A stretch of DNA of 64,000 nucleotides from Marinomonas sp. MED121. Its GTDB lineage: Bacteria > Pseudomonadota > Gammaproteobacteria > Pseudomonadales > Marinomonadaceae. The translations under genes were made by a program, and so were the position numbers. The notes under the pieces are model-generated. The model ran no database searches. It had not been told where the DNA came from and saw only the letters and a program-made list of their open reading frames with translations. The stretch covers positions 1,661,070-1,725,069 of the forward strand of contig NZ_CH672429.1 of assembly GCF_000153025.1 (NCBI RefSeq). Reading direction: 5' to 3'. The stretch's first letter is position 1. Every line of letters begins with the position of its first letter. Below are positions 26,576 through 36,485 of this stretch, piece by piece.

Positions 26576-28096
26576 TTAAAACAAGCCAGCATAGTCTTCT
26601 CTTAATTTTGCTTTTTGCACCTTACCCATAGTATTACGCGGTAGCTCATCCAAGAATACGATCGATTTAGGCCGCTTATAGGCCGCTAACGCATCGGCGC
26701 ACAGCGCTCTTATCCCTGCTTCATCTTGGCAATTTTCTTTAGCCACCACGACCGCCACAACCGCTTCACCAAAATCAGGGTGTGTCACCCCAATAACCGC
26801 GCTCTCCAGTACATTCGGGCTCTCATCTATCACCAGCTCTATCTCTTTCGGGTAAACATTGTAGCCACCTGAAATGATCAAGTCCTTGGAGCGCCCCACT
26901 ATGGTCAAGTAACCATCTTGATCTAATACACCAAGATCACCGGTTAAGAACCACCCTTCTTCACTGAGCTCTTCTGCTGTTTTTTCTGGCATTTTCCAAT
27001 AGCCAGTAAACAAATTTGGGCCACGAACATGAATTTGACCCACCTCTCCTGTTGCGACACTTTGCCCTGAATCTGGATCGAGTATTTTCACTTCAACCCC
27101 AGGTAAAGCGAGACCAACCGTGCCGGGACGTCGCTCTCCCTCATAAGGGTTCGAGGTATTCATATTGGTTTCTGTCATGCCATATCTTTCTAAAATTGCA
27201 TGTCCGGTTTTCTGCTTCCAAGCATCATGGGTTTCTGATAATAAAGGGGCAGAACCAGACACAAAAAGTCGCATATTTGCAACGCGCTCTTTTGTTAAAC
27301 CCGCATGTTTTAGTAAGCGCACATAGAAGGTCGGTACTCCCATTAACACGCTAGCCTTAGGGAGACAGTCAAGGATGTCATCAAGATTAAAGCGATTTAA
27401 AAAATAGAGAGAAGAGCCTGCGCACAGGGTGATATTCAAGGCCACAAATAAGCCATGAATATGAAAGATAGGTAAGGCATGAATGAGTCTGTCATTCGCA
27501 CTAAACTGCCAATGTTCCGCTAACGTCAGGGCATTCGCAGCCAATGCACCATGGGATAACATGGCGCCTTTAGATCGACCCGTAGTACCTGAAGTATAGA
27601 GGATAGCCGCAAGATCTTCCGGCGCTCTTTGAACTCCTTCAAAGCCTGCTTTCTCTAATTCTCTAAGTTCAAATAAAGAACCCGCTTCTCCGGTATGATC
27701 CAAGGTCAGTAGATTGGCAACCTGAGCTTTCATTGCGACCATACTCATAAGTGATTCTGAGGCTTGATCGCATACAAACACCTTAGGACTAGCATCGGTC
27801 AAAAAGTATTCAACCTCTGTTGCTGTGTAATCCGTATTTAAAGGAAGAAAAACACCACCAGCTAAAATACAACCCAGATAAAGTTCTACCGTTGTGATGG
27901 ATTTAACGACCTGAACCGCGACTCTATCGCCGGGCTCCACCCCCGCATTAATAAGTACTTTGGCCGTTTTTTCAGCATTTTCAAATAACTCTTTATAGCT
28001 CACTTCTGTACCAGATTTAAGGTAGGCAAAAACGGCATTGTCGTTATCCAAGGATGCTGACCTTAAGGTGTTTGCTAAGTAATTTGAATGATACAA
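26576..28096 (-). CDS. matB: Malonyl-CoA synthetase (AMP-forming acyl-CoA ligase)
   Basis: Converts malonate, ATP and CoA to malonyl-CoA. The 506-residue ANL-family ligase has the P-loop YTSGTTGRSKGAMLSH (near residue 167), RYGMTETNMNTSNPYEG, the hinge TGDLG and the catalytic Lys in MGKVQKAKLR. RYGMTETNMN is typical of MatB. Start is a TTG at 28096 with AGGAG seven to eight bases upstream; no ATG fits. It lies 12 bp after the malonyl-CoA decarboxylase gene in one operon, supporting malonate rather than another acid as substrate. Confidence 0.9.
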   Translation of the reverse strand: MYHSNYLANTLRSASLDNDNAVFAYLKSGTEVSYKELFENAEKTAKVLINAGVEPGDRVAVQVVKSITTVELYLGCILAGGVFLPLNTDYTATEVEYFLTDASPKVFVCDQASESLMSMVAMKAQVANLLTLDHTGEAGSLFELRELEKAGFEGVQRAPEDLAAILYTSGTTGRSKGAMLSHGALAANALTLAEHWQFSANDRLIHALPIFHIHGLFVALNITLCAGSSLYFLNRFNLDDILDCLPKASVLMGVPTFYVRLLKHAGLTKERVANMRLFVSGSAPLLSETHDAWKQKTGHAILERYGMTETNMNTSNPYEGERRPGTVGLALPGVEVKILDPDSGQSVATGEVGQIHVRGPNLFTGYWKMPEKTAEELSEEGWFLTGDLGVLDQDGYLTIVGRSKDLIISGGYNVYPKEIELVIDESPNVLESAVIGVTHPDFGEAVVAVVVAKENCQDEAGIRALCADALAAYKRPKSIVFLDELPRNTMGKVQKAKLREDYAGLF

Positions 28097-28108
28097 AAGT
28101 CTTCTCCT

Positions 28109-29416
28109 CTAATTATTTTTATACAGCTTTCTAACTTGAGATGAGGCGCTAATCACCCCTTCACACAAGAAAGCTTCATGGTTTTTCTCGATATAAGCTA
28201 AATCATATTCGTAGTTAACCATCACACCCCATGAATTAGATTGACCTCGCTCTGAACGGTCGGCCCATAAATTAATTTGCTGTAATCTCGCCCCATTACC
28301 TAAGTGAAAATTAGACACTGGGTCATATGGGCGATCTTTTTTGTTTTTTGCATCTAATAAATAACAGGCAGCCAGTTTTGACAGTGCATCTTGTTGTGCC
28401 GCCATAAACTCAGGCTGAAAAAGCGATGTTTCTTGATCCAAAGCATTGATGACACCTTGATGCTGTTGAGCAAGTTCAGAGCCAGCATGGGCCCAACGCC
28501 TTAAACCAGGTACGGGTGACATGGTGACAAAACGCTTTAAATTTGGCAGCTCACGCTTTAGCTCTTCCACCACTTGTTTAATCAAAAAGTTACCGAAGGA
28601 AATCCCCCTCAGCCCCGCCTGACAATTAGAGATGGAGTAAAACACAGCCGTTGTGGCCTCTTGTAAGTTCAAGTCTTGCCTGTCTTCCGCCAAAATTGTA
28701 CCTATGGTATCCGGCATGTCCGACGTTAACGCCACTTCAACAAAAATAAGAGGGTCATCCACCAAAGAAGGATGAAAGAAGGCGTAAAGGCGTCGATCTT
28801 GAGCAGCCACACGCCGCCTTAAATCATCCCAACCTTGGATTTCATGCACCGCCTCATAGGCAATAATTTTTTCCAGAATGTTGGCTGATGTCGACCAATC
28901 AATTCTTTCTAAGCGTAAAAAGCCACGGTTAAACCAAGAAGAAAAAAGATGACGAATATCTTGATCTAAGGCCGATAGCTCAGGCTTTTTTTTCATATGA
29001 AGAATCAGATCTTCACGCAAGCTAACGAGGGCAGCCGTGCCTCCTGGGGCCAAATTCAAACGACGCACTAACTCTTGTGACCTAGGCTCAGAAGCAAAAT
29101 GGATATTACGGGTATGCTCATCATTAGGCTCTTTTTGCCACGCATCAAGCGCCTGCTTCAAGGCTTGATTATCAACCCCAAAGTCACGGCACAAGGTTTG
29201 AAAAAAGTCGAGTTTTTGTGCTTGATCTAGATCTTTAAAAGCATCCAATATTTCTTTAGAACGTGCTAAGCCAGTCGCCTCACCCAAGTTTGACAATAAT
29301 GCCTCACATTGCTGGCTCAGGGTAATATCACCTTGCTGATTATTCACCAACATGGTGCTACCAATTTCAGTGACCCTAGATACTAGGTCCTCGATCATAT
29401 TACTCCAGCGTGGCAT
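28109..29416 (-). CDS. Malonyl-CoA decarboxylase
   Basis: Decarboxylates malonyl-CoA to acetyl-CoA. The 435-residue protein has the all-helical N-terminal domain and the GNAT-like catalytic domain of the MCD family: FYSISNCQAGLRGISFGNFLIKQVVEEL (in part), FVTMSPVPGLRRWA and the C-terminal NSWGVMVNYEYDL with the family Asn/Tyr residues. It corresponds to MatA of rhizobial malonate operons. ATG start with GAGAAGG upstream. Middle gene of a three-gene minus-strand operon. Confidence 0.92.
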   Translation of the reverse strand: MPRWSNMIEDLVSRVTEIGSTMLVNNQQGDITLSQQCEALLSNLGEATGLARSKEILDAFKDLDQAQKLDFFQTLCRDFGVDNQALKQALDAWQKEPNDEHTRNIHFASEPRSQELVRRLNLAPGGTAALVSLREDLILHMKKKPELSALDQDIRHLFSSWFNRGFLRLERIDWSTSANILEKIIAYEAVHEIQGWDDLRRRVAAQDRRLYAFFHPSLVDDPLIFVEVALTSDMPDTIGTILAEDRQDLNLQEATTAVFYSISNCQAGLRGISFGNFLIKQVVEELKRELPNLKRFVTMSPVPGLRRWAHAGSELAQQHQGVINALDQETSLFQPEFMAAQQDALSKLAACYLLDAKNKKDRPYDPVSNFHLGNGARLQQINLWADRSERGQSNSWGVMVNYEYDLAYIEKNHEAFLCEGVISASSQVRKLYKNN

Positions 29417-29445
29417 AAGCCTTCTCCTCGAAAATCAGAAATGCA

Positions 29446-29838
29446 TTAATCTAACCCCAGTTTAACGGATTGTGCTGACAACTTAAGGTCAAGTTGCATA
29501 CTGCCTTCGTTAATTAACCAGCGTCTTAAGCTATAGGTACGAGCACCATGAAGATGCATGGGGTCCTGATCAGCAATTTTGCGAGCTTCATCTAAGGTTT
29601 GTGTTCGATAAATTATCATACCAGCCCCCTCCATATACTCACCTGAAAGATCCGATAAAGGGCCCGCAAACATCAGCTTACCCTCGGCTTCTTGCTTTGC
29701 TTGATAGGCAAGATGGTCAGCAAGATGCTGCTTTACTAAAGCACCCTCTTGAGTCGGTAAACTAATTAGCATGTAGCATTCTAGTGCTAATGCGCCTCTC
29801 GCTTTTGCTTCATTTTTATACGCTAACCAAGACAACAT
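29446..29838 (-). CDS. YciI-like / muconolactone-isomerase-fold protein
   Basis: A 130-residue protein with a YciI-type ferredoxin-like fold: HLADHLAYQAKQEAEGKLMFAGPLSD followed by GMIIYRTQTLDEARKIADQDPMHLHGARTYSLRRWLINEG (quoted in pieces). The first 22 residues precede the usual domain start, but AGGAG is correctly spaced for the ATG at 29838. YciI relatives include enzymes of chloroaromatic degradation; here it is the first gene of the operon with malonyl-CoA decarboxylase and synthetase. Activity unknown; an isomerase or dehalogenase-like lyase is possible. Confidence 0.75.
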   Translation of the reverse strand: MLSWLAYKNEAKARGALALECYMLISLPTQEGALVKQHLADHLAYQAKQEAEGKLMFAGPLSDLSGEYMEGAGMIIYRTQTLDEARKIADQDPMHLHGARTYSLRRWLINEGSMQLDLKLSAQSVKLGLD

Positions 29839-29951
29839 GAGCTAACTCCTAAGAAATAAAAATAACGATATTATTTGACTTTATTAAAAATTATCGCTAA
29901 AAATTAATCAAGCACAAGATCCTAAAAAACAATTATTAATAGGAAAGTGAG

Positions 29952-30848
29952 ATGCGATTAATTGTAGGTAAAGATACAAAAAGCCAAGCTAACCCGTCTG
30001 AAAACAAGCCCTGCGTCTTTCTGATTCAAGGTGAATTGGCCATCAATATTTCGTCACAAGACAATCAATTTGGCTCAGATCTAAGCCAAATTATTAATAA
30101 CCCCCAGTTGTTAGAAAAAATATCAGGCTATTCATCAGCGCCTGGGATTCCCGTTTCACAAATACAGCCAAGCTTACCCTTGCAGCACCCCGGCAAAGTC
30201 ATTTGTCTGGGCCTTAACTATATGGATCACATTAAAGAAGGTGGTTATAAGGTGCCTGATTACCCCGCACTTTTTATGCGTAGCCATAGCTCTTTAATGC
30301 CGGCTCAAGCCCCTATGGTTAGACCTAAGGTTTCAGTTCAGCTGGACTATGAAGCCGAGCTCATGCTCATTGTGGGAAAACATGGCCGTCATATTCCTGA
30401 ATCAAAAGCCCTAGATTATGTCTTTGGCTACACGATTTTCAATGATGGTTCAGTACGTGATTACCAACGAAAAACCCACCAATGGACACCGGGTAAAAAC
30501 TTCGATAACACGGGGGCAATTGGCCCGATTATCGTCACCCCAGATGAATTACCAGAAGGGGCTCATGGCCTCAAAATCGAAACTCGGGTAGGGGATGAAA
30601 TACTACAAAGTGCCAATACCTCAGAAATGCTTTGGTCGGTAGCAAGGGTCATTGCTGAAATATCGAGCTACACCACATTAGAACCTGGCGACCTTATCGC
30701 CATGGGCACACCACCAGGTGTCGGCCATGCGCGTTCCCCTGCAAGGTGGTTAGAACCCGGCGAGGTCGTGGAAGTCGAAATTGAAGGCATTGGCATTTGT
30801 GCTAATCCTATTATTGATGAGGTACACCCTAAAGGAGAGGCATCATGA
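29952..30848 (+). CDS. Fumarylacetoacetate hydrolase family protein
   Basis: A 298-residue FAH-fold enzyme. The catalytic domain begins at VICLGLNYMDHIKEGG (near residue 84). Metal ligands are in QLDYEAELMLIVGK and FNDGSVRDYQ; GDLIAMGTPPGVGHAR is the conserved substrate loop. Family members hydrolyse or decarboxylate C-C bonds in 2-oxo and 3-oxo diacids. The gene overlaps the next by ATGA and is divergent from the malonyl-CoA operon. In this context a C-C hydrolase acting after ring cleavage is plausible but unproven. Confidence 0.88.
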   Translation: MRLIVGKDTKSQANPSENKPCVFLIQGELAINISSQDNQFGSDLSQIINNPQLLEKISGYSSAPGIPVSQIQPSLPLQHPGKVICLGLNYMDHIKEGGYKVPDYPALFMRSHSSLMPAQAPMVRPKVSVQLDYEAELMLIVGKHGRHIPESKALDYVFGYTIFNDGSVRDYQRKTHQWTPGKNFDNTGAIGPIIVTPDELPEGAHGLKIETRVGDEILQSANTSEMLWSVARVIAEISSYTTLEPGDLIAMGTPPGVGHARSPARWLEPGEVVEVEIEGIGICANPIIDEVHPKGEAS

Positions 30849-31510
30849 GCGCACTCACAGGCACAGCGCTGGAGCAAGCTCGTGCCCAAGCACAAAATGA
30901 GGTAAGAGAGTTGCGTCAACGTAAACGCGTTCTGGATCAGGACTCAATTGATGTCATTCTAAAGGGAGCAAGGTCCCATTACGCTTGGACTGATAAAGCC
31001 GTTTCAAAAAACACCTTGCACCAGCTATATGACATAGTGAGCAACGGGGCTACCAGTATGAATTGCTGCCCAGCACGTTTCATTTTTGTCACCTCAAAGG
31101 CGAGTAAAGAAAAACTTGCAAGGGCACTCAAGGCAAAGAATATCGACAAGATGATGGCTGCACCTGTTACTGCAATCATTGCTCATGACTTGAATTTTTG
31201 GCAACACCTGCCCTTTCTATTTCCCCATGAGGACAGACGTCCTTTATTCGAGGGAAAACCTGAACACATAGAAAAAACGGCATTTTTAAATGGCACCCTT
31301 CAAGGTGCCTATTTCATGATTGCGGCAAGGGCATTAGGGCTTGATGTGGGCGCTATGTCCGGTTATTCAAATGAGATTCTAGATCAAGACTTTTTTGCTG
31401 ATACTAGCTTAAAGTCTACTTTTTTATGCAACCTAGGTTACGCTGATGAAACAGCCTTATTTCAAAAGTTACCACGTTTTGCTTTTGATGATGTGTGCTC
31501 TTTTATCTAA
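30845..31510 (+). CDS. RutE-like nitroreductase-fold oxidoreductase
   Basis: A 221-residue FMN enzyme of the RutE/HadB type, whose characterised members reduce malonic semialdehyde to 3-hydroxypropionate in pyrimidine breakdown. Motifs are ARSHYAWTDKAVS (FMN-phosphate Arg), NCCPARFIFV, NGTLQGAYFMIAARALGLDVGAMSG (in part) and NLGYAD. No other rut gene is present. Co-translated with the FAH gene. Malonic semialdehyde would fit the malonate theme of the cluster, but another enal or nitro-type substrate is possible. Confidence 0.85.
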   Translation: MSALTGTALEQARAQAQNEVRELRQRKRVLDQDSIDVILKGARSHYAWTDKAVSKNTLHQLYDIVSNGATSMNCCPARFIFVTSKASKEKLARALKAKNIDKMMAAPVTAIIAHDLNFWQHLPFLFPHEDRRPLFEGKPEHIEKTAFLNGTLQGAYFMIAARALGLDVGAMSGYSNEILDQDFFADTSLKSTFLCNLGYADETALFQKLPRFAFDDVCSFI

Positions 31511-31667
31511 AACAAAGAAATACCAGGCATCTGCTTAATTCCGGCGTTCTTTCGTTTTCGACTGACAAGCTGAAAATGATTGGAGCCCAAATAAGCTACT
31601 AGAAACTAATGGTAAATTAAGGCAAAAAGAGGACTTACTTTAAAAAGAAACGCGTTTTCTAAAGTGG

Positions 31668-31697
31668 CCTGCTAACAGGCAATAAGGCTTTTTTTGT
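31668..31697 (+). terminator. Possible terminator before TRAP genes
   Basis: GCCTG-CTAA-CAGGC hairpin, then AATAAGGC and seven T residues. It may end the FAH/RutE-like transcript and would make the TRAP genes a separate unit. Confidence 0.5.
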
Positions 31698-31782
31698 CTC
31701 CAGCTTGCTTATGCAAGCACAGAAAATGAATGTTATTTGCTTCTAAATTAATAATAAAACAGTGTTAGTTGAGGAATCTAAA

Positions 31783-32865
31783 ATGAAAATAACAAAACTT
31801 CTCTGCTCGACCATTGCTTTAACCCTAGCAAGTCTTATCTGGACACCTGCTATGGCGACCCAAACCATTAAAACGGTCGTCATTGATGGCTATCCAGCGA
31901 AAGCCATGTGGGTTAATGAGTTCTCCAAGTTCTTCATTCCCAATGTTAACAAACGGCTTGCCGAAACAGGCAATTATAAAATTGACTGGCAAGAGTCTTA
32001 TGGGGGCAGCATAGTCAAACCCAAAGGCGTGTTAGAAGGGGTCAAATTAGGCCTTGGTGATATTGGTATAGTGACTACCATCTTCCATAGCTCAAAGCTC
32101 CCTAGCCAAGCACTCTCTGCCGTCACGCCATTTATTGTTGCTGACGCCAGAGTGGTGGCAAAAGCAGTGGATGAAATTGCCAAAGAATTCCCCACCATGC
32201 AAAAAGAATTTGCCAAACAAAATCAGGTTTACTTGGCGACAGGTGTCGTGCTGGATACCTACCAAGTTTTTAGTGAGCAACCTATCAAAAGCGCAACGGA
32301 TCTGGAAGGCAGTAAAGTCGCTGGGGCTGGGATGAATTTACGCTATTTAGAAGGTATTAATAATGCCGCGGGGGTCAGAGGAGGATTAACCAATTTCTAT
32401 AATATGTTGCAAACAGGTCTTGTCGATCACGCTATGCTTTGGCCAGAAGCTGCAAACACGTTTAAAGTGGTCGAAGTCGCACCTTATATGTTGCAAGCCA
32501 ATCTAGGGGCCGTAAACACAAAAACCGTGACAGCGAATGCTAGATATTGGAAAAAGCTTCCCCAAGAAGTCAAAGATGTCATGTTAGAAGTGGCCGTCTT
32601 ATATCGTGACCATGTGGCAAGCAGAGCCATGACTCGCGCTCGCTCCAGCCTACGTAACTTCCAAAAAGAGGGTGGTTCCATTACTAAAATGGAAAAAGAA
32701 GCCCAACTTGCTTGGGCAAACTCAATGCCAAACATTGCCGTTGAATGGGCAGAAGCTTTGGATAAAAAGGGTGAACCTGGTAGTGAAATGCTCAGAGCCT
32801 ATATCGATAAACTTGCTCGTGCAGGCTATGACCCTATACGAGATTGGTCTGCAGAACTACCTTAA
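31783..32865 (+). CDS. dctP: TRAP transporter substrate-binding protein (DctP family)
   Basis: A 360-residue periplasmic binding protein with a signal peptide ending near PAMA-TQT. The C-terminal half shows the DctP fold (VFSEQPIKSATDLEGSKVAGAGMN, with the usual Arg in MNLRYLEGI, then ARYWKKLPQEVKDVMLEVA). Such proteins usually bind carboxylates. The start at 31783 follows GAGGAA; an earlier codon is less likely. It lies upstream of genes for both membrane subunits with a strong hairpin in between. S. meliloti imports malonate by a TRAP system (MatPQM), which makes malonate one candidate substrate. Confidence 0.9.
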   Translation: MKITKLLCSTIALTLASLIWTPAMATQTIKTVVIDGYPAKAMWVNEFSKFFIPNVNKRLAETGNYKIDWQESYGGSIVKPKGVLEGVKLGLGDIGIVTTIFHSSKLPSQALSAVTPFIVADARVVAKAVDEIAKEFPTMQKEFAKQNQVYLATGVVLDTYQVFSEQPIKSATDLEGSKVAGAGMNLRYLEGINNAAGVRGGLTNFYNMLQTGLVDHAMLWPEAANTFKVVEVAPYMLQANLGAVNTKTVTANARYWKKLPQEVKDVMLEVAVLYRDHVASRAMTRARSSLRNFQKEGGSITKMEKEAQLAWANSMPNIAVEWAEALDKKGEPGSEMLRAYIDKLARAGYDPIRDWSAELP

Positions 32866-32877
32866 AAAGACAATTAA

Positions 32878-32909
32878 AGAGAGCTTAAGTCAACCATCTT
32901 AAGCTCTCT
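32878..32909 (+). terminator. Intra-operon hairpin between dctP and dctQ
   Basis: AGAGAGCTTAAG and its exact complement form a 12-bp stem with an 8-base loop; T-rich sequence (TTCTCTTTTT) follows after seven bases. It is better placed to act as a partial terminator or 3'-end stabiliser that raises binding-protein levels over membrane subunits than as a full stop. Confidence 0.65.
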
Positions 32910-32995
32910 AGAGTTCTCTTTTTAGCTATATAAATGAAGGCTAATAAGTAGCGGATATGCGCGCTTTTATTGGTTTTCTTGATTCGGAGTTTGTT

Positions 32996-33550
32996 ATGCC
33001 GAACACCCTAATAAGAGCCGCCCAAACGCTCAATCCCATTGTTAATACCTTAGCGATGGTTGCCAATACAGTGGGCACCTTGGTTGTGCTCGCCCTGGTT
33101 AGTATCGTTAATTTCGATGTCATTGCCCGAGGCGCATTTAACCAACCCTTTATGGGAGCGGTTGAGATAGTCCAGTTTTCCATGGTGCTGATTGTCTTTT
33201 TACAATTGCCGGATGTGGTCAGGGTCAATCGCCTGACGCGTTCCGATGGTTTTCTTATTTTTCTAAAGCTGACTTACCCAAGATTTACGCTTTGGCTGCG
33301 TCGGTTAATCGATTTTATCTCATGTTTACTCATGTTATGTGTCGCACTTGCTATCTGGCCTGAATTTATCGAAATGTACGAAAGTCATGATTTTTTCGGG
33401 ATTCCAGGGGTTTTCACCGCGCCTTGGTGGCCCATTAAATTAACCATATTTTTAAGTGCCTGCTTATGTTCACTCTTGTTTATCCTAAAAGTCATTTTGG
33501 CAACCACAGAGATAGCCCCCAAGCCAATACCAGTAGGAGAAAATAAATGA
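32996..33550 (+). CDS. dctQ: TRAP transporter small membrane subunit (DctQ family)
   Basis: A 184-residue protein with four predicted membrane helices (about residues 20-42, 57-77, 98-118, 145-168). The region IARGAFNQPFMGAVEIVQFSMVLIVFLQLPDVVR (quoted from its ends) matches DctQ. The ATG at 32996 has CGGAG upstream and is preferred over an ATG 39 bp earlier. Its end overlaps the large subunit start by ATGA. Confidence 0.88.
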   Translation: MPNTLIRAAQTLNPIVNTLAMVANTVGTLVVLALVSIVNFDVIARGAFNQPFMGAVEIVQFSMVLIVFLQLPDVVRVNRLTRSDGFLIFLKLTYPRFTLWLRRLIDFISCLLMLCVALAIWPEFIEMYESHDFFGIPGVFTAPWWPIKLTIFLSACLCSLLFILKVILATTEIAPKPIPVGENK

Positions 33551-34854
33551 CGCCAATTGAAATCGGCTTAATGTCGGTCGTTGCGATTATTGTTCTAATT
33601 TACCTAGGGTTTTATATTCCGATTGCTTTGGGTGTCGTGTCTTTTGTCTCTATTTGGTTGATGCGAGACAACTTCGACCTTGCTATGAATCTATTGAAAA
33701 TTGCGATTGGTGACAGTGTCATGGAATACACCTTTGCCACCGTGCCTTTGTTTACCTTTATGGGACTCATTGTCTCAAAGGCAGGAATGGGCACCGACAT
33801 CTACCAAGTAATGAATTCAGGCTTTCGCAAGGTTAAAGGTGGCATAGGCATGGCAACCGTGGGCGCAAATGCAGTCTTTGCCGCTGTGACAGGGTCTTCT
33901 ATTGCCTCAGCCTCAGTATTTTCCAAAGTATCTGTACCTCAAATGCTGCGTTATGACTATAACCCAAGATTTGCCGTTGGGGTTGTCGCAGGTTCTTCTG
34001 TACTGGGGATGATTATCCCCCCTTCAGCCATGCTTATCATTTACTCCTTTGTGGCTGAGCAATCAGTGGGGGCCATGTTCCTCGCTGGGGTAGTGCCGGG
34101 GTTGATGCTCGCCTTTGCCTATATAGCAACCATTTGGAGTATGGGAAAAATCGCACCGAATTATGTGGGAGGACGGCCTGCCAGTGATTATGAATGGATG
34201 TCATTTAAAGAGATTTTCAGCAAAACGGCCCCACTTTGTACACTTATTCTCGTGGTACTTGGGGGGATTTATACGGGTTGGATGACCCCAGTTGAAGCAG
34301 GTGCATCCGGTGCTGCAGTAGCACTTATCATTGCTCTTGCTCGACGTAAAATGAGCCTGCATGCTTTTTGGCAAGCCTTAATAGAAACAGGCCATATTAC
34401 CGCTGCGATTCTTTTTTTGATTACAGCCGCTTCGATTTACAGTCGTATGCTTGGGCTGGCGGGGTTACCTAACGAGCTAAGTGAAATACTCGCCAACAAC
34501 CAACTTGGCTTTTTTTGGATCATGACTATCTACCTTTGCTTAATGCTGTTTTTAGGCACCTTGTTAGATACCGCGTCCATCATATTGATTGTTGTTCCTC
34601 TATTTTTACCTTTAATTGAGCCTATGGGACTTAGCCTAATTTGGTTTGGCATTATTACTGTCATTGGGGCAGAAATAGGCCTTCTTACGCCGCCCTTAGG
34701 CATTAGCTGCTTTGTGATAAAAGCCACGCTAGAAGATGACAGAATCAGTCTTAAAGATGTGTTCATGGGGGCACTACCCTTTGCTTTTGTGATGCTAGTG
34801 GTACTCATCATTCTTATTAACTATCCCATTCTTTCTTTAGCCATTCTTAACTAA
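33547..34854 (+). CDS. dctM: TRAP transporter large membrane subunit (DctM family)
   Basis: A 435-residue, roughly twelve-helix permease using a sodium gradient. Family marks include ATVPLFTFMGLIVSKAGM, ANAVFAAVTGSSIASASVFSKV, GSSVLGMIIPPSAMLIIYSF and EIGLLTPPLGISCFV. Translationally coupled to the small subunit and followed 11 bp later by the intradiol dioxygenase gene, which ties the transported compound to ring cleavage or to its product. Confidence 0.93.
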   Translation: MTPIEIGLMSVVAIIVLIYLGFYIPIALGVVSFVSIWLMRDNFDLAMNLLKIAIGDSVMEYTFATVPLFTFMGLIVSKAGMGTDIYQVMNSGFRKVKGGIGMATVGANAVFAAVTGSSIASASVFSKVSVPQMLRYDYNPRFAVGVVAGSSVLGMIIPPSAMLIIYSFVAEQSVGAMFLAGVVPGLMLAFAYIATIWSMGKIAPNYVGGRPASDYEWMSFKEIFSKTAPLCTLILVVLGGIYTGWMTPVEAGASGAAVALIIALARRKMSLHAFWQALIETGHITAAILFLITAASIYSRMLGLAGLPNELSEILANNQLGFFWIMTIYLCLMLFLGTLLDTASIILIVVPLFLPLIEPMGLSLIWFGIITVIGAEIGLLTPPLGISCFVIKATLEDDRISLKDVFMGALPFAFVMLVVLIILINYPILSLAILN

Positions 34855-34865
34855 GGACTCTGACC

Positions 34866-35738
34866 ATGCGAACTGTAACCAGCGATAACATTACCGACAC
34901 CTTTATTAATTATTTTGGCCCAGACACTAGCCCAAGAACCAAACAGCTTATGGCAAGCTTAGCGGCTCATCTACATGATTTTGTTAAAGAAACCCAACTT
35001 AGCCACGATGAATGGCGCAAGGCACTAGAGTTATTAAAATGGACTGGGGATATGACCAATGATGAGCGTAATGAGTTTGTTTTGCTGTCAGATGTACTTG
35101 GGGTCTCTTCTCTTGTTGATATGATACATTCTGACCCTAAAGCGACTAGCTCCAGTGTACTCGGCCCATTCCATGTCTTACATTCCCCCGAAAGAGCTTA
35201 TGGCGCAGATCTAAAAGGTGACTTAGAAGGCGAGATCATCCTAGTCGAAGGGGTGGTTAAAGACACCCAAGGCAAGCTAATTGCGGGGGCAAAAGTCGAT
35301 ATCTGGCAAACCGCTCCCAATGGTATGTATTCTTCTCAAGACCCGGCCCAAGATATTGATAGCTTTCATGGTATTTTCACCACAGATGAAGCAGGCCGAT
35401 ATGCTTTTACGACGGTTCGCCCAGTCTCTTACACTGTTCCTAGTGATGGACCTGTCGGGGTTTTATTAGATGCCACTGGCCGCCATCCATGGCGCCCTTC
35501 TCACCTACATTACATGGTGAGTGCACCCGGTTGTCGAACCCTAGTCACTGAGGTATTTCCAAGCGATGATCCTTATCTAGATCAAGACACGGTATTTGGG
35601 GTCAGGGAAGATCTAGTGGTGCAATATCAGGCTCAAGCAGCAGGGTCCTTCCCAACATCAGGCTTTGAATTATCAGGTAAGGTGAATCAGGCTTACTCAA
35701 GCATCCACTTTGATGCCATTTTAATGAAGGATGCTTAA
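34866..35738 (+). CDS. Intradiol ring-cleavage dioxygenase (hydroxyquinol 1,2-dioxygenase-like)
   Basis: A 290-residue non-heme Fe(III) enzyme. It has the N-terminal helical dimerisation/linker domain (residues 20-95) found in catechol and hydroxyquinol 1,2-dioxygenases, and the catalytic beta domain. All four iron ligands are visible: Tyr155 (NGMYSSQ), Tyr189 (VSYTVP), His213 and His215 (RPSHLHY). The SSSVLGPFH stretch before the catalytic core resembles the hydroxyquinol branch. There is no maleylacetate reductase, muconate cycloisomerase or oxygenase gene nearby, so the ring substrate is unknown. ATG start after AAGGA. Last gene of the TRAP operon. Confidence 0.9.
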   Translation: MRTVTSDNITDTFINYFGPDTSPRTKQLMASLAAHLHDFVKETQLSHDEWRKALELLKWTGDMTNDERNEFVLLSDVLGVSSLVDMIHSDPKATSSSVLGPFHVLHSPERAYGADLKGDLEGEIILVEGVVKDTQGKLIAGAKVDIWQTAPNGMYSSQDPAQDIDSFHGIFTTDEAGRYAFTTVRPVSYTVPSDGPVGVLLDATGRHPWRPSHLHYMVSAPGCRTLVTEVFPSDDPYLDQDTVFGVREDLVVQYQAQAAGSFPTSGFELSGKVNQAYSSIHFDAILMKDA

Positions 35739-35789
35739 CACAGAAAATCGCCAGAACAGCTAAAATGATGACTTAGATTTAAGCCTCGG

Positions 35790-36485
35790 TTAACGCCAGT
35801 TAGCCGGGCTACTTTTAGCGAAAGATTGGCGTAAAAAAGTGCCCGTGTCTGTATAGTGTTTTAACAGTAGCTTAGAGGCAAGATCTGCATCGCGATTAAT
35901 GGCGGCATTCATAATACTTTCATGCTCATTACGTACATCACGCTTAGCATAATTTACCGCCGCCTCAGCAAGGAATCGATAACGAATATTTTGATCATAA
36001 AGCTGGCTGCAATAACTTAACAATATAGGTGAATCACAGGCTTCCATCAGACATAGATGAAACACCTTATGCAGACTTTCCCAATGATCAAAATCTTCTT
36101 GATTCGCGCGAGATAACCTATGGTGATTAAGGACTAAACGCTCTTCCCAATCATTATCGCCAAGCTCAATACTCTTGCGTAATGCCAGATCATCAAGGGT
36201 ACAACGTAGCATGAAAATCTCGTTGAAGTTCGCTTCACTCACTTGAGACACACGAAATCCACGTTGATCTATTCTATCCACCAGTTTATTGGAGGTCAGC
36301 AAACTTAATGCTTCACGAATCGGTGAGGCACCAGTATCAAACAATGGCTTAAGTGTTTCTACTTTAAGACGCTCACCAGGAGCAAACTCTCCCTTGATGA
36401 TTTGTTGTCTTAACTGAAGGTAAACCCTTTGAATTGCCGTTTTAGTGTCAGGCACTTGTGCCTGCGCTTTAGTTTCATTTGTCAT
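35790..36485 (-). CDS. GntR-family regulator, FadR/FCD subfamily
   Basis: A 231-residue regulator with an N-terminal winged HTH (IIKGEFAPGERLKVETLKPLFDTGASPIREALSLL, given in part) and an all-helical FCD effector domain from about residue 80. The metal/effector-binding His residues of FCD proteins appear in the HHRLSRANQEDF, HKVFHLCLM and NEHESIMNAA regions. It converges on the intradiol dioxygenase gene and is the only regulator in the malonate/ring-cleavage region, so it is the likely controller. MatR of rhizobial malonate operons is also GntR-type. Confidence 0.9.
   Translation of the reverse strand: MTNETKAQAQVPDTKTAIQRVYLQLRQQIIKGEFAPGERLKVETLKPLFDTGASPIREALSLLTSNKLVDRIDQRGFRVSQVSEANFNEIFMLRCTLDDLALRKSIELGDNDWEERLVLNHHRLSRANQEDFDHWESLHKVFHLCLMEACDSPILLSYCSQLYDQNIRYRFLAEAAVNYAKRDVRNEHESIMNAAINRDADLASKLLLKHYTDTGTFLRQSFAKSSPANWR

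Follow-up and report, generated by a model that had tools for sequence, protein, structure and literature searches.

Introduction

Several described systems bear on the bacterial use of malonate and of hydroxylated aromatic rings. The malonate operon of S. meliloti carries genes for a GntR regulator, the TRAP proteins P, Q and M, malonyl-CoA decarboxylase (MCD) and malonyl-CoA synthetase (MatB), in that order. The hydroxyquinol and chlorohydroxyquinol pathways (Tcp, Tft, Pnp) employ an intradiol dioxygenase (IDO), and the acylpyruvate hydrolases, such as FAHD1 or the 2,4-diketo-3-deoxyrhamnonate hydrolase (structure 8gsr), belong to the FAH superfamily. In fungi, according to passages of PMC12388069, gallate is converted to 1,2,3,5-tetrahydroxybenzene, whose opening by a putative DUF3500 protein is proposed; the same passages cite Martins et al. 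2024 (Microb. Biotechnol. 17:e14371) for the fungal central pathway through this compound. Here we analysed a stretch of 64,000 nucleotides from Marinomonas sp. MED121 (genome G000; contig NZ_CH672429.1, positions 1,661,070 to 1,725,069 of the forward strand), called the window below, in which ten genes at positions 26576-36485 bring together MatB, MCD, a TRAP importer, an FAH-family hydrolase, an IDO and a GntR/FCD regulator.

We propose that this block is one GntR-controlled regulon for the use of a polyhydroxylated benzene. The TRAP importer would take up the compound or a precursor, a RutE/HadB-type flavin enzyme would keep the easily oxidised phenol in its reduced state, and the IDO would break the C1-C2 bond of 1,2,3,5-tetrahydroxybenzene, or of a simple derivative of it, giving 2,4-dihydroxymuconate, that is 2,4-dioxoadipate (malonylpyruvate). 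A YciI-like protein would handle a lactone or tautomer of 2,4-dioxoadipate, and hydrolysis of this acylpyruvate by the FAH-family enzyme would release pyruvate and free malonate. MatB would convert the malonate to malonyl-CoA, and MCD would turn this into acetyl-CoA and CO2. In a sister version of the pathway, an HMGL-like DRE-TIM enzyme (DRE) takes the place of the FAH-family enzyme and may yield malonyl-CoA directly. That the block serves one pathway ending in malonate we consider very probable, while the identification of the ring substrate as 1,2,3,5-tetrahydroxybenzene itself is made with moderate confidence.

A first-pass annotation of the window had suggested a catabolic unit leading from a ring compound to malonate or malonic semialdehyde and, through MatB and MCD, to acetyl-CoA. 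The unit gained support from the linkage of its genes, from an operator found at split loci and from the exchange of FAH for DRE, whereas the malonic semialdehyde branch was not supported. The operator, the replacement by DRE and the product logic were absent from that annotation.

Results

Organisation and conservation of the block

The ten open reading frames of the first-pass annotation were all verified for coordinates and strands, and Pfam agreed with the family names given to the ten proteins (10/10). The features of the block are the following:

26576..28096, minus strand: MatB, malonyl-CoA synthetase, 506 aa (NCBIfam NF005702, 763 bits for a cut-off of 558; Pfam AMP-binding)
28109..29416, minus strand: MCD, malonyl-CoA decarboxylase, 435 aa (Pfam MCD 331 bits, MCD_N 98 bits)
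29446..29838, minus strand: YciI-like small protein, 130 aa (Pfam YCII 47.6 bits)
29861..29872, no strand: operator AATAACGATATT, one mismatch from AATATCGATATT, followed after 2 nt by TTGACT in the divergent promoter
29952..30848, plus strand: FAH-family hydrolase, 298 aa (Pfam FAA_hydrolase 227 bits)
30845..31510, plus strand: RutE/HadB-type flavin reductase, 221 aa (NF003768, 254 bits for a cut-off of 152; Pfam Nitroreductase)
31762..32865, plus strand: TRAP substrate-binding protein (Pfam DctP 79 bits)
32957..33550, plus strand: TRAP small permease (Pfam DctQ 43 bits)
33547..34854, plus strand: TRAP large permease (Pfam DctM 285 bits)
34866..35738, plus strand: IDO, 290 aa (Pfam Dioxygenase_C 132 bits, Dioxygenase_N 91 bits)
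35790..36485, minus strand: GntR/FCD regulator (Pfam FCD 65 bits, GntR 60 bits)

Orthologues of the IDO were sought at several scales. Among 56 relatives (G000 included), two further genomes of the same genus carry an orthologue (74-75% identity) and a third genome of the set holds a distant copy only (41%). A class-wide draw of 369 genomes gave matches at E<=1e-60 in 11 of them, G000 included, with a gap in identity between 59% and 46%. A pattern scan of an 84,980-species collection, which detects close relatives only, returned 78 loci, 60 of them at 58-80% identity and 18 at 43-48%; a scan of a viral contig collection with the dioxygenase gave no match. The 60 loci at 58-80%, which come mainly from marine Alphaproteobacteria, constitute the IDO orthologue group.

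Gene content around these 60 dioxygenases, some of whose loci are cut by contig ends, was counted with tblastn because a longest-frame caller chose antisense frames in GC-rich loci. TrapM and GntR are each present in 53 loci, RutE-like and TrapP in 51, DctQ in 50, YciI in 49, an OsmC-like gene in 45, FAH in 43, MCD in 41, MatB in 30 and DRE in 8. YciI, the RutE-like gene, TRAP P/Q/M and the IDO occur together in 49 of the 60 loci (hereafter core loci). The families grouped by the first-pass annotation are thus conserved together with the dioxygenase. That annotation would have counted as a refutation a dioxygenase scattered away from a conserved malonate and TRAP unit; the opposite was seen, with IDO, TRAP, RutE and YciI forming the tight core and MatB/MCD being the part sometimes located elsewhere, still behind the operator in the cases fetched. 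The most complete counterpart lies on plasmid pDY25-C of Pacificitalea manganoxidans, where all ten genes are found in identical order (44-76% identity). On the locus maps the OsmC-like gene, assigned by Pfam, stands between the RutE-like and TRAP genes; it has no match in the window at E<=1e-3.

As a control we examined 28 locus entries (24 distinct places) whose IDO is less than 50% identical. FAH, MCD and YciI had no match there at E<=1e-3, nor had OsmC at E<=1e-10. Partial relatives were restricted to a RutE-like protein (39%) in one place, TRAP proteins (25-50%) in three, MatB (30%) in one and GntR (37-39%) in four, three of these GntR matches being short. A YCII-family protein is present at control locus L009, too distant for the search at E<=1e-3.

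A shared operator and its regulon

The operator emerged from a comparison of 54 divergent regions of the YciI|FAH or YciI|RutE kind, among them that of the window; inverted repeats in individual intergenic regions of the window were uninformative, and only this comparison revealed it. The perfect palindrome AATATCGATATT is found in 30 of the 54 regions and, within two mismatches, in 53 of 54 compared to 4 of 270 shuffled regions. Most of these regions have a TTGACA-like box two bases 3' of the palindrome. The copy at 29861-29872 is the sole site within one mismatch in the window.

At genome scale, the exact palindrome was matched 49 times, in 35 of 52 genomes, and the reversed pattern 4 times. 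With the -35 box included and up to two mismatches allowed, the scan gave 61 rows from 45 of 52 genomes, compared to 2 matches for the control, and the only such site in G000 is that of this block. The 49 exact sites comprise 28 at the block or at split loci, 3 in G023 and 18 others that were fetched: 13 of these are inside genes and were taken as chance, and 5 are upstream of genes, two of them inside a reading frame as called, yet before the start common to its homologue. Four sites with a -35 box away from the block (L185-L188; two intergenic) were fetched as well and have no pathway genes.

The operator follows the genes when the block is split. It precedes MCD-MatB at L127, L170 and L182, FAH at L063 and L183, the IDO at L056 and L058, and DRE or GntR at L119-L122. 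L127 reads MCD-MatB-GntR, and L123/L124 hold GntR, FAH, MCD and MatB, in relatives whose IDO blocks lack MatB, MCD and GntR; L170 reads YciI-GntR-MCD-MatB behind the operator, and L119/L120 OsmC-TRAP-DRE. At L181 the operator sits at YciI|RutE-TRAP, the IDO of that genome being on a different contig. Three relatives have GntR copies of 65-76% identity in their separate MCD-MatB(-FAH) loci. Given that GntR accompanies the sites, we propose that the GntR/FCD protein binds the operator. A chance neighbourhood was ruled out by the conserved linkage across genomes together with the common operator.

One exact site in G000 (C5:532273; locus L177:4774-7298) lies upstream of three genes. The first encodes an amidohydrolase-like protein with no Pfam match, whose Ruegeria relative falls just below the Amidohydro_2 cut-off and which has no match in the solved-structure search; the second encodes a small protein with no Pfam match; and the third a di-haem protein (Pfam CCP_MauG) whose nearest NCBIfam model is MbnH, below cut-off. 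Genes 1 and 2, and probably gene 3, have export signals, as judged by eye. In 11 Ruegeria loci, relatives of all three genes lie downstream of the IDO (54-55% for gene 1, 43-45% for gene 3).

Other genes recur near operator sites. A Tat-type lactonase-like MBL protein is encoded behind the operator in two Shimia genomes and one other genome of the Rhodobacteraceae (L166:5088-6020, L167:4065-5000 and L168:4176-5111), and an HbpS/GlcG-like small protein recurs in the second loci L121, L122, L123 and L124 (Pfam on the L124 copy only).

The dioxygenase and its ring substrate

G000 has two PF00775 matches, of which the IDO is one. The four iron ligands (Tyr2-His2) announced by the first-pass annotation are present; we take them to be Y155, Y189, H213 and H215, which are conserved in more than 98% of 68 orthologue rows and more than 95% of 25 outgroup rows. 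These hydroxyquinol-type outgroup rows, one pair of which is the same gene, owe their assigned activity to cluster context. In a tree of 75 rows the orthologues fall on a separate, well supported side, long branches being a caveat. The orthologues differ from the hydroxyquinol-type rows at many nearly fixed positions, among them S95, H103, H168 and E229 in 68/68 and T190 in 67/68.

An ordinary hydroxyquinol route, in which the IDO would lead through maleylacetate to 3-oxoadipate and the malonate operon would be adjacent by chance, is improbable in our judgement. The nearest solved structures are indeed PnpC and the (chloro)hydroxyquinol 1,2-dioxygenases, and the first-pass annotation had considered hydroxyquinol as a substrate. 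It had also stated that no maleylacetate reductase or thiolase is present. This holds for the block, and the reductase is missing from the whole genome as well, but a PcaF-like thiolase (66%) is encoded on another contig of G000, which speaks for the hydroxyquinol route. The search for the reductase used the enzyme of the hydroxyquinol-type cluster of G023, which matches its own genome and shares 50% identity with an annotated maleylacetate reductase. The reductase was found in 7 of 51 IDO-orthologue genomes, a further point in favour of that route, and was not found at E<=1e-50 in the other 44, G000 included. Hydroxyquinol is an unlikely substrate because the reductase is missing and the residue differences of the IDO are nearly fixed. 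The presence of MCD/MatB behind the same operator even on other contigs also argues against an adjacent but separate malonate operon, as does the TRAP importer of the block, which is not a malonate TRAP (see below).

We then return to a route ending in malonate, for which the products restrict the ring. We enumerated polyhydroxybenzenes on the premises that free malonate is a product (the substrate of MatB), that an intradiol dioxygenase and an acylpyruvate hydrolase act in turn, and that the ring bears hydroxyl groups only. Only 1,2,3,5-tetrahydroxybenzene gave an intradiol product, 2,4-dioxoadipate, which an acylpyruvate hydrolase can split to pyruvate and malonate. On this deduction from the products, we propose that the IDO is a 1,2,3,5-tetrahydroxybenzene dioxygenase. 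The enumeration rules out other unsubstituted rings, not derivatives.

The same logic could indeed apply to a methoxylated, sulfated, carboxylated or alkylated tetrahydroxybenzene that loses its substituent either ahead of ring opening or afterwards, which we regard as a minor possibility. Near the orthologous IDO, L048:5028-6380 and L057:2-964 hold genes for a DesA/LigM-like tetrahydrofolate-type O-demethylase, below the cut-offs of both families, together with TAXI-TRAP genes. A sulfatase gene is found near it at L056:13798-15468, L058 and L063:10430-12061 (Pfam for the L056 and L063 copies). The O-demethylase and sulfatase genes hint at derivative substrates, and the latter suggests sulfated phenols in some strains; in addition, TRAP importers usually carry acids. 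However, the block of the window has neither an O-demethylase nor a sulfatase gene, and LigM-like matches are limited to 2 of the 60 loci.

The FAH-family hydrolase and its replacement by a DRE-TIM enzyme

For the proposed pathway through 2,4-dioxoadipate, the FAH-family protein is the candidate malonylpyruvate (2,4-dioxoadipate) hydrolase. Its best NCBIfam match is 2,4-didehydro-3-deoxy-L-rhamnonate hydrolase, at 181 bits for a cut-off of 500. H93, E96, E134, E136, D165 and K182 are invariant in 46 copies; by reference to FAHD1 they would presumably be the catalytic dyad, the three acidic metal ligands and the lysine.

FAH is lacking in 9 of the 49 core loci. In 7 of the 9, DRE is found near GntR, and L086, which is cut by its contig ends, also has DRE; at the other two, L059 and L103, DRE lies 12-15 kb off on the same contig, by coordinates. 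The DRE protein matches PF00682 with 223 bits, has the isopropylmalate and homocitrate synthases as nearest named families and a homocitrate synthase (6ktq) as nearest solved structure. The copy at L033:1861-3075 (minus strand) and its orthologues are 80-100% identical across 11 genomes. Shimia thalassica CECT 7735 is an isolate with DRE, and Ruegeria atlantica CECT 4292 one with FAH.

We counted both enzymes in 50 of the 52 genomes: FAH was found in 34, DRE in 11, both in none and neither in 5, although locus L086 of one of these five, G432, does show DRE. The 34 consist of 31 genomes at >=54% identity (one partial match) and three with close relatives at 47-49%, which were counted on account of their position, either within the block or next to GntR, MCD and MatB. 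With the stricter limit of >=54%, the counts are 31 and 11, again with no genome having both. The exclusion yielded a Fisher p of 1.2e-7, or 2.0e-6 with the 31 only, kinship being ignored. When mapped on the IDO tree, the FAH/DRE label changes 6 times, of which at least 4 are forced by well supported branches. MatB is present in 28 of the 40 core loci with FAH compared to 0 of the 9 without it (p 1.4e-4, kinship again ignored).

FAH and DRE probably perform the same step, since they never co-occur and are repeatedly swapped, and since MatB in the core loci occurs only together with FAH. DRE may deliver malonyl-CoA directly, bypassing MatB, which was not found at E<=1e-100 in the DRE genome G427 (Oceanomicrobium pacificus).

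The RutE-like, YciI-like and TRAP proteins

With 43% identity to E. coli RutE, the RutE-like protein scores above the cut-off of the NCBIfam model for malonic semialdehyde reductase (NF003768). The first-pass annotation had allowed for malonic semialdehyde as a product; in such a version, for which the NCBIfam label speaks, the RutE-like protein would reduce it to 3-hydroxypropionate, malonate being a side branch. We consider this version very improbable. The same label is given to a gene of a gallate-type cluster and to one between a hydroxyquinol-type IDO and an annotated maleylacetate reductase in Skermanella, whose product is 45% identical to the protein of the block. MatB and MCD would moreover be pointless for 3-hydroxypropionate. 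HadB/TcpB and RutE share a subfamily. In the chlorophenol breakdown pathway, TcpB is given as a quinone reductase in the part of PMC4264193 that concerns it, and as similar to nitroreductases in that of PMC3975901. Because its label recurs in hydroxyquinol-type and gallate-type clusters, a quinone reductase of the HadB/TcpB kind is a likelier identity for the RutE-like protein than a malonic semialdehyde reductase.

By analogy, we propose that the YciI-like protein catalyses an isomerase or lactone-handling step after ring cleavage. A YCII-family gene adjoins the IDO in the hydroxyquinol-type cluster L009. TftG is a YciI-fold protein. It acts on a hydroxylated ring, according to a passage of PMC3975901.

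The binding protein of the TRAP importer, for which ATG 31783 (preceded by GAGGA) is a likelier start than GTG 31762, gave weak matches only in the solved-structure search. The large permease is 46-47% identical to importers at L026, beside a hydroxyquinol-type IDO and maleylacetate reductase, and in a cluster of Leisingera that includes YciI and FAH genes. The first-pass annotation had likened the importer to rhizobial MatPQM. Against the S. meliloti operon (L128), P gave no BLAST match and M was 28% identical; the likeness was not borne out, and a role as malonate importer was rejected on sequence.

Other plasmid regions with RutE-like or TRAP relatives represent varied catabolic contexts, one of them being too sparsely annotated. 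On plasmid pSR-2 of Skermanella rosea (L109:9092-12575), a row of genes encodes a sugar-type ABC importer, oxidoreductases, an IDO, a RutE-like protein, maleylacetate reductase and a 3-keto-5-aminohexanoate cleavage protein, perhaps a route from a cyclitol to hydroxyquinol. The genes flanking the block in the window (catalase, DUF6164, CBS, NYN, glyoxalase, AFG1 and acyltransferase) appear unrelated.

Discussion

The gene content, the linkage, the common operator, the exchange of FAH and DRE and the absence of maleylacetate reductase are read from the genomes; the substrate, the intermediate, the role of each enzyme and the binding of GntR to the operator are what we infer from them. Several observations weigh against the pathway as drawn. 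Neither FAH nor DRE reaches the cut-off of any NCBIfam family listed, the list for DRE being the best 25 of 29. Proteins of the FAH family with up to 46% identity occur in the DRE genome G424, so that the line drawn between 46% and 47% is thin, and a pairwise test of the exchange, with only 5 supported pairs, was non-significant. MatB is held by 10 of the 11 DRE genomes, and L056 and L058, outside the core set, have MatB beside the IDO without FAH; for these reasons the direct delivery of malonyl-CoA by DRE rests on G427, on the incomplete G432 and on local linkage. At L020 and L024, FAH, DRE and an operator within one mismatch are all absent; the orthologues at L048, L057 and L060, which also lack such an operator, are accompanied by other TRAP-type genes. 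G023, which lacks an orthologous block, has three exact operator matches and one with a -35 box. Neither the block nor the fetched operator-site stretches showed a hydroxylase, decarboxylase or depolymerase for the formation of tetrahydroxybenzene, and the YciI and RutE roles are assigned by analogy.

If the pathway is true, aerobic bacteria could finish the degradation of an opened aromatic ring as pyruvate plus malonate, in addition to the endings through 3-oxoadipate and the meta route. It would also propose what drives MatB/MCD in marine bacteria, and how these bacteria use tetrahydroxybenzene-type phenolics, part of the brown-algal carbon pool. In fucalean algae a tetrahydroxybenzene monomer has been annotated (PMC13412289), and tetrahydroxybenzene units are reported in phlorotannins (PMC7551814), the passages concerned not stating the isomer. 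The repeated swap from FAH to DRE points to an uncharacterised C-C cleaving activity, and the automatic label of malonic semialdehyde reductase seems, as our comparison suggests, misleading in aromatic clusters. The widest version of the proposal is tentative, and we give it somewhat less than an even chance: a bacterial central pathway from 1,2,3,5-tetrahydroxybenzene through malonylpyruvate to pyruvate and malonate, with a CoA-dependent DRE version leading to pyruvate and malonyl-CoA, would represent a route for brown-algal polyphenols that is widespread among marine bacteria, including a periplasmic module of amidohydrolase-like and MbnH/MauG-like proteins under the operator.

Comparison with known systems

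The last two steps of the block are those of the S. meliloti malonate operon, with MatB 56% and MCD 51% identical. Besides the differences in TRAP, the GntR proteins are only 29% identical, and the rhizobial operon has no ring cleavage. With the hydroxyquinol and chlorohydroxyquinol pathways the block shares an IDO of the same superfamily and, in individual clusters of this type, a RutE/HadB-type reductase (Skermanella), a YciI-type protein (L009) and a TRAP importer (L026). These clusters carry maleylacetate reductase, annotated in Skermanella and represented by relatives of 50-62% at L009 and L026, whereas in the block its place is taken by FAH (or DRE), MatB and MCD, and the IDO belongs to a separate orthologue group. 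The FAH-family protein has in common with the acylpyruvate hydrolases the superfamily, the His-Glu dyad, the metal residues and, in the proposed route, a 2,4-dioxo acid as substrate; it differs in that this substrate would be malonylpyruvate and in that it scores below the cut-off of the named family.

In the literature searched (open-licence papers only), we found no report of a bacterial tetrahydroxybenzene pathway and no relevant mention of malonylpyruvate or dioxoadipate. The nearest parallel would be the fungal pathway, which has the same proposed ring intermediate and whose cluster reportedly includes an FAH-like gene as well as a gene for a short protein with 5-hydroxydienelactone as its substrate. 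The proposed ring opener in fungi is the DUF3500 protein, which is not among the ten block proteins according to Pfam (search limited to the block), whereas the bacterial block has an IDO. The TRAP importer, the GntR operator, MatB/MCD and the DRE variant would characterise the bacterial form, for which we propose malonate as the fate of the ring. We thus propose that the block resembles the fungal pathway, but with a different ring opener and a malonate ending.

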